The notes under the pieces were generated by a model. That model was given only the letters and a program-made list of their open reading frames with translations, did no database searches and was not told the origin of the DNA. Below are positions 6,826 to 38,738 of a stretch of 64,000 nucleotides of DNA, piece by piece. A program made the position numbers and the translations under genes. Where the stretch lies: NCBI RefSeq assembly GCF_022808865.1, contig NZ_JAKZLB010000002.1, positions 138,019 to 202,018 on the forward strand, written 5' to 3'. Every line of letters starts with the position of its first letter. Within the stretch, counting starts at the first letter, position 1. Source of the stretch: Geothrix oryzisoli (GTDB lineage: Bacteria; Acidobacteriota; Holophagae; Holophagales; Holophagaceae).

Positions 6826-7614
6826 TCAGTGTCCGCGGAGGGCCACCAGCAGCGCCATGAGGAGCACCACCACGGCGTAACTCTGCTTCAGCTTCACCCC
6901 CTGGACGCGGATGGCCACACGGGCGCCGGCGAGGGCCCCCAGGGCGAACCCCACGGCCACGCCGGCGATCACCACCCAGGGCAGGCCGCCCTGGGCCTTG
7001 GCGTAGACATACACTCCGGGGAGGCCGATGGGCGGCAGCAGCATGGCGAGGCTGGTGAGCTGGGCTTCGTGCTGGGTCATGCGGAAGCGCGAGGCCAGCA
7101 GGGGGATCACCACCACCGCCCCGCCCAGGCCCGTGAGCCCCGAGACCACCCCGGCGAGCAGGCCGATGGGCACCCCGGCGGTCCAGATGCCCGAGGACAG
7201 GTCCAGGGGTTCCAGCGTCCGATCCACGGATGGCGGCTCGTGCCGGAAGTAGGTCTTGATGGCCAGGAACACCAGGAAGGCCGCATAGCTCCAGCGCAGG
7301 GGCTCCGAGGGGATGAGGTTGGCCACCCGGGCGCCCCCGTAGATGCCGAAGAGGAAGGCCAGCACCAGCACCCCCACCAGGCGGAGGCTCGTATGGATGC
7401 CCCGGCTGCGGTACTGGAGCACCGCGGGCAGGCCCGTGGGGAGCAGCATGGCCGCCAGGGTGGCGCCCTGGGCCCGGTGCTGGTCCAGGTGCAGCACCAG
7501 ACCCAGCAGGGGCACCATCACGACGCCGCCTCCCACGCCGAAGAGACCCGACAACGCGCCGCCGCAAAGTCCCGTCACCAGGCCCGCCAGCAGGTGGTTC
7601 ACATCCAGGCTCAC
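6826..7614 (-). CDS. TauE/SafE-family membrane transporter (sulfite/organosulfonate exporter type)
   Basis: A 262-residue polytopic protein with the internal duplication typical of TauE/SafE: GLFGVGGGVVMVPLL near the N-terminus and GLTGLGGAVVVIPLL in the second half, with about eight hydrophobic helices. Members move sulfite, sulfoacetate or other small anions; the substrate here is unknown. The GTG start at 7614 has GGAGG just upstream and overlaps the stop of the esterase gene (GTGA), so the two are cotranslated. Confidence 0.88.
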   Translation of the reverse strand: MSLDVNHLLAGLVTGLCGGALSGLFGVGGGVVMVPLLGLVLHLDQHRAQGATLAAMLLPTGLPAVLQYRSRGIHTSLRLVGVLVLAFLFGIYGGARVANLIPSEPLRWSYAAFLVFLAIKTYFRHEPPSVDRTLEPLDLSSGIWTAGVPIGLLAGVVSGLTGLGGAVVVIPLLASRFRMTQHEAQLTSLAMLLPPIGLPGVYVYAKAQGGLPWVVIAGVAVGFALGALAGARVAIRVQGVKLKQSYAVVVLLMALLVALRGH

Positions 7615-35210: not shown

Positions 35211-36368
35211 TCAGCCCGCCACCCAGATCTCCGGCGGCACCGGGTGGCTGAGGAAGTGGGTCATGCCCTCGTTCAGGCCGTAGGCGCCGGCGGTGCCGAA
35301 GGCCAGCAGGTCCCCCGTCGCCAGCTCCGGCAGGCGCAGCTCACCCAGGCGGTCCAGGCTGGTGCAGAGGGGTCCCGCCAGCGTGTAGGGCAGGGTCCCC
35401 TCGCCCTTCCCCACAACCTTCACGGGGAACGGCTGGCCCGTCAGCAGGGGCCGGATGAGGTGGTTGATGCCGCCCTCCAGGATGGCGAAGCGGGTGCCGC
35501 GGCTCTCCTTGAGGCGCACCACCCGGGCCAGGTAGATGCCGCAGGGGCCGGCCAGGAAGCGGCCCGGCTCCAGGATCAGCTCGCCCTTGAACCAGGCGTG
35601 CCGGGCCAGCAGATCCGACAGTCCCTGTCCAAAAGCCGTCAGGTCTAGCGGCGTTTCGTCCGGCGCGTACGGCACGCCCAGCCCCCCGCCCAAGTCGATC
35701 TGCTCGAAGGCGAGTCCATGGGTCTCAAACAGGCGCTTCGCCAGGTCCAGAACCGCGCCGTGGATGGTCCGCAGCTTGGCGGCGTCCCGCTGGTTGCTGG
35801 CGGCGAAGACATGCAGGCCCCGGATGCGGACGTGGTCCAACTTGGCGGCCTTTTCGAGCAGCGCCGGCAGATCCTCTTCGTCCACGCCGAAGGCCGAGGG
35901 CCCGCTGCCCCCGATGATGCGGTTGCCCTCGTCGATGTCGAAGGCTGGGTGCACCCGCAGGTTCACCGCTGTCTCCCGGGTGGCCAGGGCGTCGATGCGG
36001 GCCAGGTCCTCGAAGCCTTCGGCCTGCACGCGAACCCCCATGAACATCGCCTTCTGCAGCTCCGGTATCCGCTTGCCCGGCCCGGCGAAGAAGGTGCGGC
36101 CCGCCGGCAGGCCCAGCGCCTCCACCCGCTCCAGCTCCCCGATGGAGGCGCAGTCGAAGCTGGCGCCCAGGGCGGCGAAGCCCTTCAGCAGGTCCGCATG
36201 CGGGTTGGCCTTCACCGCATAGGCGAGGCGCACCCGCTGGGGCAGCACACGGCGCAGGGCCGTGAACTGCTCCGCCGCCACGGCTGCAGAGTAGGCAAAG
36301 CAGGGCGTGCCGTGGGCCTCCGCCAGTTGCTGGCAGGTGGCGTCGTCGAAGGCGAAGAGGGAAGTCAT
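35211..36368 (-). CDS. lysA: Diaminopimelate decarboxylase (fold-type III PLP enzyme)
   Basis: The last step of lysine synthesis. A 385-residue alanine-racemase-fold decarboxylase: PLP Lys53 in YAVKANPH, phosphate loop IDLGGGLGVPY, and C-terminal AGPLCTSLD plus FGTAGAYGL. It is a little shorter than typical LysA, and the usual HIGSQ-like motif reads HVFAASNQ, so another carboxylase of this fold cannot be fully excluded. Position at the end of a complete DAP operon supports LysA. Separated from the operon by a foreign-looking gene; its own ATG lies 40 bases after that gene. Confidence 0.78.
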   Translation of the reverse strand: MTSLFAFDDATCQQLAEAHGTPCFAYSAAVAAEQFTALRRVLPQRVRLAYAVKANPHADLLKGFAALGASFDCASIGELERVEALGLPAGRTFFAGPGKRIPELQKAMFMGVRVQAEGFEDLARIDALATRETAVNLRVHPAFDIDEGNRIIGGSGPSAFGVDEEDLPALLEKAAKLDHVRIRGLHVFAASNQRDAAKLRTIHGAVLDLAKRLFETHGLAFEQIDLGGGLGVPYAPDETPLDLTAFGQGLSDLLARHAWFKGELILEPGRFLAGPCGIYLARVVRLKESRGTRFAILEGGINHLIRPLLTGQPFPVKVVGKGEGTLPYTLAGPLCTSLDRLGELRLPELATGDLLAFGTAGAYGLNEGMTHFLSHPVPPEIWVAG

Positions 36369-36408
36369 GCAATTCCATTCAGGCAGAAGGAAGGCGGAAC
36401 GAAAATAG

Positions 36409-37563
36409 TTAGTGATGGATGTCCCAGTTGTAGACCACCGTGAGAAACCCCTTGAAGGCACGGTCTGTATCGTAGGGATCGGCAAAGAGCCCGGTCGCGA
36501 CAAGCCGTTCGTTCGTCATCCCAAACAGGTAATGCCAGATCATGGTGAACCCTTCCTGGAAGCGAACACCCGAGCGGGAGTAGCTGAGATCTCCGAGTTC
36601 TCGTTGAAGCTGGGAGTAATGCTGTTTCAGCCATGCCGACATAACCTGTCGTCCAATGGCGCGAACGTTATTGACCATGGGTTCATCGCGCCTGGATAGG
36701 ACCGGAATTCTAAGGCGGAAGCGACCGGCCTCCTCCCCGACCCAACCATAGGCTTGGAGGATGGGCATCAATGTGGCCACCGCCGAGCGATCGAGGCCCT
36801 TGCTTCGACCCAGGTCGTCCAAGGATGCCGAGCCTTCGCGCAACGCCATCATGATGCGGAGCATGGGGTCGGTAAACTCAGAAGGGGGGGTCAGCCGTTT
36901 ACAGGCATAGTCCCCGAAGTTCGTGAGCCAGAGGCCATTTTCATCGCTAGTCTGGCTTCCCCAGTACAAGCCACGGAGCGATAGTGAGCTGGATTCCTCG
37001 GCGTGTGGCACGTAGTTTCCGTCTGGTCGTGGGCGAGTGGCGGCTCTGTACCCCTGCTCGGACGTAACCACAAGACCATCCCAGTCCAGGCTCATACAAC
37101 CCAACACGATAAAGGCAAGATCCCGGCGGTCCACGCCGGGAACGTCATAGGCCGCCAAGGCGCCCAGAAGCTCCCCTTTGCGGGCATCCAGGGCCCTGGC
37201 TAGTGACTCTGCATGAGGGCGGACGGTCTCCCGGATGCGCTTCTGGTCCGACACTGTGAAGAGGGCGAAGTTCAGGTGATACCGACCCTCCTCTTTCCGA
37301 ATCAGTCCCAGGGCTAGAAGATCCTTGAGAGCCCCCGGTGCATCCGCCAAGGCTTTCGCCGCCGCAGATTCACTCAAGGGTTCCTTGGCTAATTCCAGAA
37401 GGAACTTCTGCACGGGTAGTCCACTCATGGTCCTGAAATAGTTCGGAGACTTGCCCATGTTGATAGTGCCGACGATCGAGGCCCTAAGTGGCGGCTCGGA
37501 TTCGGAATAGAGCGGCGGCCCCGCCAAGAGTAGGAGCAGCAGCTTGAAAAGAGGTCGGCCCAT
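36409..37563 (-). CDS. Unknown protein with two winged-helix-like segments, lower GC
   Basis: 384 residues from ATG 37563 (GCGGGG upstream). The N-terminus (MGRPLFKLLLLLLAGPPL) looks like a signal or anchor; a downstream start at 37458 would give a cytoplasmic protein. Residues 45-100 and 235-300 look like winged helices (LSESAAAKALADAPGALKDLLALGLIRKEE and SLDDLGRSKGLDRSAVATLMPILQ). I recognise no family. Sampled lines contain 53-63% GC against about 75% in a neighbouring gene, suggesting transfer. It lies between the aminotransferase and lysA of the lysine operon. Confidence 0.65.
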   Translation of the reverse strand: MGRPLFKLLLLLLAGPPLYSESEPPLRASIVGTINMGKSPNYFRTMSGLPVQKFLLELAKEPLSESAAAKALADAPGALKDLLALGLIRKEEGRYHLNFALFTVSDQKRIRETVRPHAESLARALDARKGELLGALAAYDVPGVDRRDLAFIVLGCMSLDWDGLVVTSEQGYRAATRPRPDGNYVPHAEESSSLSLRGLYWGSQTSDENGLWLTNFGDYACKRLTPPSEFTDPMLRIMMALREGSASLDDLGRSKGLDRSAVATLMPILQAYGWVGEEAGRFRLRIPVLSRRDEPMVNNVRAIGRQVMSAWLKQHYSQLQRELGDLSYSRSGVRFQEGFTMIWHYLFGMTNERLVATGLFADPYDTDRAFKGFLTVVYNWDIHH

Positions 37564-37596
37564 TATGGAACCCCGCAAATAGGCTTGAGTGTTGGT

Positions 37597-37602
37597 TTTA
37601 TA
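37597..37602 (-). promoter_or_regulatory. Possible -10 box of the low-GC gene
   Basis: Reading the minus strand, TATAAA lies in an AT-rich stretch (37590-37610) about 33 bases upstream of the ATG at 37563. This is the only AT-rich spot in the lysine operon and could give the inserted gene its own promoter. No good -35 box was found. Confidence 0.35.
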
Positions 37603-37622
37603 TCATCGAATCCGGTGCCATC

Positions 37623-38738
37623 TCATTCGTTCCAGTAGGGCGCGAACCGCCGCACGCCTTCCCGCAGCTGCTCGGGGGTGGCAGCGAAGCTGAGGCGGGC
37701 GTGGCCGCGGCCGCCTTCGCCGAAGGCCAGGCCGGGGATGAGCACCACCTTGGCCTCGTCGCGCAGGCGCAGGCAGAAGGCCACGGGATCGGCGTGGGCG
37801 GCCTCGGGCAGGGGCATGAAGTGGTAGAAGGTGCCATCGGGGGCCGCCACCGTCTGGCCCAGTTCCTTGCGCAAGGCCGCGGCCAGGGCCTGCCAACGCT
37901 CGCCCACGGCGGCCCGGGCCTCGGCGAGCACCGTGTCGGAATGTTCGATCAAGGCCAGGGCGGCCCACTGGGCGGGCGTGGCCGTACCGGTCACCGCGTA
38001 ACCGTGCACCGTGCGGGCGGGCACCAGCCAGGCGGGATCGCCCACGGCCCAGCCCACGCGCAGGCCCGGAGCGCCCCAGCCCTTGCTCACGGAACTCGTC
38101 ACCACGCCGCGGTCCGTCACGTCCCGCAGGCTGGGGCAGCGGGTGCCGAAGTGCAGGTCGCGGTAGACCTCGTCGGAGATGAGCAGCACGCCCCGGGCCG
38201 TGCAGGCGTCGGCCACGCGCTTGAGGGCCTCCAGGCTGCCGCCTCCGCCCGTGGGGTTCGAGGGCAGGTTGAGGATCACCGCGGAGGTGTCCGGCGTGGC
38301 GTCCAGCACGCGGATCAGGGCCTCCGCATCCAGGCGGAAGCGATCCTTCGACAGCGGGTAGGGCACCGCCTCGGCGCCCGCCATGAGGGCGAGGGCCGGA
38401 TAGGCCACGAAGCCGGGATCGGGCACCAGCACCTTCGTGCCCGGCTCCACCCAGGCCTGGAAGAGCGAGAACAGCGCCCCCTGCGAGCCCGTGGTGATGA
38501 GCACCTCGTCCACGTGCGCGCCGTGGAAGGCGGCCACGGCCTTCCGCAGATCGAGCAGGCCCACGTGCGGCACATAGGGACAGGGGCCCGGGTTCTGCAG
38601 CAGGGCCTTCCGGCCCACCTCCGGCAGGTCCCAGGTGGGCTCGCCCAGACCCAGGGGGATGGCCCCGGGCGGTGTACCGTCCGTGATGGCGCGGATGGGC
38701 GAGGGCTTGAGCAGGGATAGGCGGGAGGCGGGCTTCAT
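37623..38738 (-). CDS. Class I/II aminotransferase, candidate N-succinyl-DAP aminotransferase
   Basis: A 371-residue fold-type I PLP enzyme: TTGSQGALFSLF for the phosphate, NLPSNPTGGGGS, ISDEVYRDL and the Schiff-base Lys in SSVSKGWGAPGLRVGW. The lysine pathway by the succinylase route needs an N-succinyl-L,L-DAP aminotransferase (DapC) between DapD and DapE, and this is the only aminotransferase in the operon, so DapC function is inferred from context. It begins 28 bases after dapD. Confidence 0.8.
   Translation of the reverse strand: MKPASRLSLLKPSPIRAITDGTPPGAIPLGLGEPTWDLPEVGRKALLQNPGPCPYVPHVGLLDLRKAVAAFHGAHVDEVLITTGSQGALFSLFQAWVEPGTKVLVPDPGFVAYPALALMAGAEAVPYPLSKDRFRLDAEALIRVLDATPDTSAVILNLPSNPTGGGGSLEALKRVADACTARGVLLISDEVYRDLHFGTRCPSLRDVTDRGVVTSSVSKGWGAPGLRVGWAVGDPAWLVPARTVHGYAVTGTATPAQWAALALIEHSDTVLAEARAAVGERWQALAAALRKELGQTVAAPDGTFYHFMPLPEAAHADPVAFCLRLRDEAKVVLIPGLAFGEGGRGHARLSFAATPEQLREGVRRFAPYWNE

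Follow-up and report, generated by a model that had tools for sequence, protein, structure and literature searches.

A putative exported double winged-helix protein encoded by an insert in the lysine operon of Geothrix

Introduction

The winged helix is one of the standard folds with which bacteria read DNA, and proteins that carry it are expected to be cytoplasmic. In ToxR and CadC, the winged helix is N-terminal and cytoplasmic and stands before the membrane segment. The winged-helix domains of O-methyltransferases serve protein contact, not DNA binding.

With regard to gene turnover, the available part of the hotspot study by Oliveira et al. (2017; PMC5635113) describes integration inside operons as rare, and proposes exchange via recombination at flanking core genes for hotspots without a recognised mobile element. 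The available part of another study (PMC8046335) reports a few genes inserted between or within conserved operons, for the ribosomal/RNA polymerase cluster of Gammaproteobacteria and Bacilli. Among the open-licence papers searched, no title or abstract opening dealt with an exported winged-helix family or with the aminotransferase–lysA junction.

Here we analyse a gene in a 64,000-nucleotide stretch of the Geothrix oryzisoli genome (hereafter the window), which an earlier sequence-only reading had described as encoding a 384-residue protein of low GC content between the aminotransferase and lysA genes of the lysine operon.

The inserted gene and its operon

The inserted gene (36409–37563, minus strand) encodes a 384-residue, apparently exported protein with two predicted winged-helix repeats. 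Its start codon is ATG (an upstream TTG would give 389 residues). It lies 59 nt from the stop codon of a PLP aminotransferase gene (37623–38738, minus strand), which forms the upstream flank of the hotspot described below, and is separated by a 40-nt spacer (36369–36408, minus strand) from the ATG of a lysA-like decarboxylase gene (35211–36368, minus strand), the downstream flank. Between genus members, the initial 120 nt of this flank vary and are incongruent. The reading frame and both gaps bear out the placement given by the sequence-only reading. The visibly lower GC content also holds (0.589 versus 0.733 in the adjacent aminotransferase gene) and extends to codon use (GC3 0.688 versus 0.927).

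The operon order is asd, lysC, dapB, dapA, dapD, aminotransferase, inserted gene and, in last place, lysA. NCBIfam names asd, lysC, dapA and dapD at scores above cut-off. The names of the other three genes rest partly on operon context because no NCBIfam cut-off is reached: dapB scores 100.7 (cut-off 122) and lysA 241.6 (cut-off 297.9), and none of the 25 families listed, out of 44, passes its cut-off with the aminotransferase. The lysA-like protein also scores higher with the TIGR03099 exosortase-associated decarboxylase model (271.9 bits) than with the lysA model, both below cut-off, and has a second match in the same genome at 30% identity.

The leader between the aminotransferase stop codon and the ATG (37564–37622, minus strand) is AT-rich and can be aligned to the leader of the Geothrix ortholog (L004), in which GGAGG stands upstream of the same ATG. 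The AT-rich, promoter-like spot proposed earlier survives as to its base composition and not as to the promoter: a scan of positions 36200–37800 found no sigma-70-type promoter (0.4 expected by chance), and a TATAAA-like string in the leader is not conserved in the one close ortholog. A local promoter as a sign of separate regulation was rejected, given the lack of a sigma-70 match in that interval. Because the gene runs in the operon direction and no promoter match was found, it is probably co-transcribed with the operon.

Protein architecture

The window protein reaches no curated Pfam or NCBIfam cut-off: its sole Pfam match is PF25213 (14.6 bits versus 35), so that HTH_5 gathering is not attained, and its best NCBIfam score (13 bits versus 230) stays below the curated MarR-type cut-off. 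One relative (L060) matches MarR_2 at 20.5 bits versus 27. Weak profile matches place a winged helix near residues 229–284. In the PDB, a sequence search returned one winged-helix chain (E 0.12) and a profile search returned seven chains, the best being NmtR (E 0.0021), over the second winged helix.

Profile–profile comparison argues for an internal duplication. In hhalign, repeat 1 (residues 40–200; 36964–37446, minus strand) matches repeat 2 (residues 226–384; 36412–36888, minus strand) at 94.4% with a score of 52.3, compared with at most 24.9 in 100 column shuffles; the underlying nine-member alignment omits G073 and G077, whose copies are partial, and the broken Solibacter copy (L005). Both repeats also match the single-unit relatives L061–L063, repeat 1 at 97.3% (score 74.2; at most 18.5 in shuffles) and repeat 2 at 71.4% (score 37.7; at most 18.7 in shuffles), and the two of these relatives that were scanned (L061 and L063) pass Pfam HTH_5 gathering. 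In other alignments L005 was used solely as its second frame, and L014 was omitted from one alignment. By these comparisons, the window protein is a tandem duplication of an ArsR-like winged-helix unit. The predicted winged helix of repeat 1 (approximately residues 49–97), supported by the profile comparisons, has a shortened third helix, seen as a four-residue gap in the alignments; that of repeat 2 (approximately residues 228–284) has no gap there.

A full-length AlphaFold2 model built from three sequences is poor (pLDDT 51); it contains two helix–helix–helix–strand–strand units with a long helix after each, and residues 139–227 take no confident fold. A model of repeat 2, with repeat 1 in the alignment, predicts a winged helix with pLDDT 82–85 over residues 11–60 (mean of the whole 62.8). 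For repeat 2, the top Foldseek hits were mostly MarR, IclR and ArsR structures, alongside some methyltransferases and further winged-helix proteins, all with E of 3e-3 or higher, and neither the full-length nor the repeat 2 model had a match at E ≤ 0.001. VIA gave Z up to 9.9 for repeat 2 (SmtB, 75 aligned residues, rmsd 3.2), many MarR/ArsR types being tied. The modelling thus supports a winged-helix fold for repeat 2. Structure prediction, which the sequence-only reading had proposed as a check, succeeds for this repeat and not for the whole protein; its two winged-helix-like segments are recovered by profile–profile comparison, and the second also by the model with Foldseek and VIA.

The nine full-length family members read have 384–442 residues. 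Between the repeats, FGDHH is found in seven of the 11 copies read there (L006–L010, L060 and G077), and L109 has FGDHD. The Solibacter copy and both Geothrix copies are without the HH pair; in the Geothrix copies, about 30 residues after it are missing as well.

N-terminus and export

By hydropathy, residues 1–20 of the window protein (37504–37563, minus strand) are signal-like, similar to those of the other eight full-length members. In all nine, one to three basic residues lead into a hydrophobic stretch, and the first conserved block follows soon after; these N-termini differ in their letters, and one (L010) includes a lipobox-like LMAGC. Similar beginnings are seen in the split copy of G077 and in the first fragment of the broken Solibacter gene. 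N-terminal hydropathy peaks are 2.2–3.2 in full-length members versus 0.4–0.9 in the single-unit relatives, which have no such stretch; in the window protein, the N-terminal peak (2.45) is lower than an internal one (2.54). The apparent signal or anchor segment noted earlier is present as a hydrophobic N-terminus. A misannotated start, raised in the same reading, is unlikely because this N-terminus recurs in all nine full-length members; the idea was rejected on that ground and because GGAGG precedes the same ATG in L004.

From these features we infer that the window protein is exported. Under the positive-inside rule, the basic residues of an anchor stay on the cytoplasmic side, so that a cleaved signal, or an anchor with its basic residues inside, would place both winged helices outside the cytoplasm. 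If export holds, the protein is unlikely to regulate the lysine operon, and a gene-regulatory role would have been lost. A cytoplasmic DNA-binding regulator is thus disfavoured by the sequence, and the membrane-tethered regulator that had seemed the simplest reading becomes doubtful. Exported and single-unit relatives are not told apart by local charge; winged-helix charge was rejected as evidence for lost DNA binding, the two groups being alike.

Distribution of the family

A full-length copy is present in two of 47 genus genomes (the window genome, which is included in the 47, and G034), some of these genomes being incomplete, down to 58%. The L004 and G034 copy was treated as one record. 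It likewise lies directly after the aminotransferase gene, its leader can be aligned with that of the window, and its contig stops right after the gene, leaving the lysA side beyond the edge. A third genus match (G027) covers 61 residues only, in a frame that by eye resembles an ArsR regulator.

In a phylum sample of 396 genomes, nine had a match at E ≤ 0.001, of which eight were counted as members (G027 excluded). Class-wide searches added G435 (six of 162 genomes with any match) and G571 (four of 142), and two further class-wide searches added no member (four of six and three of four genomes with a match). The tallies at E ≤ 0.001 include weak matches over one winged helix or unit that were not counted as members (G004, G027, G437, G462, G525, G533, G080, G092, G115, G635 and G636); the sequences of L003, L013 and L061–L063 were read among the weak matches, and the others were judged from their short matched range. 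The Solibacter record (L005) was found by a peptide-pattern scan of genome contigs. Beyond the phylum, coverage consisted of a peptide-pattern scan reaching close relatives and of plasmid, phage and viral collections. The inserted gene had no match in PHROGs, phage records or viral contigs and no useful match in plasmid collections, and PADLOC gave no family at E ≤ 1 for the window protein. The double winged-helix family is sporadic within the phylum.

Two copies are damaged: the Solibacter copy has lost its reading frame, and that of G077 falls into two frames. Positions 7230–7373 of L005, downstream of the broken Solibacter copy, hold a degraded duplicate of the upstream gene's end (local alignment score 70.5 versus at most 25 in 200 shuffles); because this end recurs downstream, the broken copy lies between duplicated stretches. 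In three genomes of one genus (L008, L009 and L012, from G097, G085 and G073), the family member adjoins a guaA-like gene, named by eye, and looks like its fixed neighbour in that lineage, not cargo.

The aminotransferase–lysA junction as a hotspot

Among the 40 aminotransferase–lysA junctions measured, the gap is at most 25 nt in 25, 43–135 nt in six and 614–1901 nt in nine, whereas no gap exceeds 291 nt at the other five operon junctions (n = 195). Extra DNA of 0.6–1.9 kb is thus present at nine of 40 junctions, the window included, versus none of 195 elsewhere (Fisher p 5e-8), and at eight of 39 versus none of 190 without the window (p 4e-7); both p values overstate the certainty, as related genomes were counted as independent. 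The junction table holds 39 genomes, the window and L004 (standing for G034), which drops out of the 40 as it lacks the lysA side. Six of the 47 genus genomes are outside it: G009 and G010 have lysA at a contig start, G012, G027 and G422 have no lysA match, and G036 has an 18-residue match.

The main cargo genes are of seven kinds: (i) the double winged-helix gene in the window; (ii) a DUF2314 protein in L017; (iii) DinB-like proteins in L022, L028 and L044 (58–63% mutual identity; one of the three scanned), with an additional DUF2007 protein in L044; (iv) GAPDH in L025; (v) a Schlafen/AlbA_2 protein in L031/L046; (vi) an Mrr endonuclease in L033; and (vii) a RelA/SpoT-domain protein in L034. 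The main cargo frame is co-directional with the operon in all nine cases, and insert GC is 0.49–0.67. With repeated and diverse content, set against the control junctions, the aminotransferase–lysA junction is a hotspot of horizontal gene transfer. The DUF2314 cargo protein of L017 also has a signal-like start.

Loose operon junctions of other genus members contain palindromic repeats of a CCGCAGAG...CTCTGCGG type and a CACC(A/G)CCAAG...CTTGG type, at aminotransferase–lysA in L023/L075, L078, L076, L087 and L033/L085, and at dapD–aminotransferase in L070, L075, L078, L076, L087, L101 and L084. In L033/L085, the Mrr gene has one half of such a repeat on each side. A probe for the CCGCAGAG...CTCTGCGG type found no match in the window. 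The dapD–aminotransferase junction was rejected as a second cargo hotspot: its gaps are at most 290 nt, and the eight inspected show repeats.

Insertion history, selection and flanks

An aminotransferase tree with 41 rows places the window together with G200, G017, G025 and G006 (support 81/86; 98/96 in a smaller tree without the large-insert genomes, in which the aminotransferase is cut at the locus edge; the 41-row tree includes them). These four relatives have only 13–24 nt between aminotransferase and lysA, and G024 and G014, which come next in the tree, hold different cargo at the junction. The second carrier (L004/G034) pairs with G424 (97/85), in which aminotransferase and lysA overlap by one base. 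The two carriers are not sisters, since each groups with different relatives. The gene is an insert in the lysine operon, as had been proposed: by synteny, 31 of 40 gaps are at most 135 nt and the other eight large ones hold other genes, and its codon use differs.

Both Geothrix copies have open frames and the same GC3 (0.688). Between them dS is 0.62, dN 0.10 and dN/dS 0.165, showing that the gene is under purifying selection; for the aminotransferase, dapD and lysC of the same two genomes, dS is 0.39–0.47. The history fits exchange between lineages or early insertion with frequent loss, which are not firmly separable.

Among 31 rows having all seven genes, the poorest correlation of any of the 21 segments with the remaining operon is that of the first 120 nt of lysA (0.37; others 0.45–0.83); swapping of cargo through recombination in the flanks would be expected to leave such a pattern. 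The 3' end of the aminotransferase gene is no outlier (0.56), and dapB and dapD diverge about as strongly at their 5' ends as lysA does. The last 116 nt of the window aminotransferase gene stand closer to the other carrier (0.905) than the rest of the gene does (0.835–0.853), though not closer than to non-carriers (0.87–0.92). Homologous recombination in the two flanking genes, aminotransferase and lysA, may drive cargo turnover; the support for this is one-sided and comes mainly from one incongruent segment, the lysA 5' end. The 116-nt comparison does not favour exchange and slightly reduces our confidence in the overall explanation.

Discussion

We favour, with moderate confidence, the explanation that the gene is a horizontally acquired single-gene cargo encoding an exported double winged-helix binding or scaffold protein of the periplasm or cell surface. 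An ArsR/MarR-type unit of winged helix and long helix, sharing ancestry with the signal-less single-unit ArsR-type proteins, would have been duplicated and given a secretion signal. The single gene would have been acquired horizontally at the variable junction of the Geothrix lysine operon, where cargo may turn over through recombination in the flanking aminotransferase and lysA genes, and would be transcribed along with the operon. Its product would be exported and periplasmic or surface-held. There, outside the cytoplasm, it would most likely serve in binding or as a scaffold and not as a transcription factor.

The sporadic occurrence of the family, the lost frame of the Solibacter copy and the two frames of the G077 copy would also suit a decaying acquired gene without function, retained by chance, which is very improbable in view of the dN/dS of 0.165 between two Geothrix copies that are both open frames. 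That the gene is an old Geothrix operon gene, lost in most lineages, instead of a later insert, seems to us rather unlikely. The same junction in two non-sister carriers with alignable leaders, and a dS (0.62) just moderately above that of the operon genes (0.39–0.47), speak for an old gene; it would however require many separate losses, including in the window's four nearest relatives and the nearest relative of the other carrier, and it has to contend with the equally low GC3 of both copies and with unrelated genes at the same junction in other genomes.

A further alternative concerns function: the protein could be a membrane-anchored or cytosolic regulator of the operon or of other genes, its N-terminus being no signal or its winged helices facing the cytoplasm. 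The fold is indeed that of ArsR/MarR regulators, the single-unit relatives resemble ordinary regulators without a signal and have a similar local charge, and winged helix 2 is ungapped at its third helix. However, all nine full-length members have a signal-like N-terminus, one of them lipoprotein-like, the gene is missing from most genomes that keep the operon, and winged helix 1 has a four-residue gap at its third helix. We consider such a regulator quite unlikely, and an extracytoplasmic protein reusing a regulator fold likelier than a membrane-tethered regulator.

Beyond the horizontally acquired, exported cargo favoured here, a bolder and only tentative idea is that a duplicated and exported transcription-factor fold founded an uncatalogued acidobacterial family of double winged-helix proteins that is extracytoplasmic and still binds something: perhaps DNA that is extracellular or entering the cell, perhaps a metal or small molecule via the FGDHH stretch. 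If true, two winged helices behind a secretion signal, together with signal-less single-unit kin, would make a traceable repurposing of a regulator outside the cell. The junction offers a compact and clear-cut example of genes turning over within a biosynthetic operon. Its hotspot character and the internal duplication behind the two winged helices go beyond what the sequence-only reading had described.

Comparison with known systems

The repeat shares its fold (helices, a two-strand wing and a long helix) with ArsR/SmtB (HTH_5) and MarR regulators; unlike these, the window family has two tandem units per chain and a signal-like N-terminus. Weak profile and structure matches, below threshold, link it to O-methyltransferase dimerisation domains (PF08100 and similar), whereas no methyltransferase domain was found in the window protein. 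Its likeness to ToxR and CadC is the presence of a winged helix and a membrane segment in one protein; unlike in ToxR and CadC, the hydrophobic segment precedes the winged helices. As for the junction, the available part of Oliveira et al. (2017; PMC5635113) likewise describes genes turning over at a single spot with no recognised mobile element, although the Geothrix spot, unlike those hotspots, lies inside an operon. The cases in the available part of PMC8046335 share the insertion into a conserved operon and differ in the operon cluster and the bacteria concerned.
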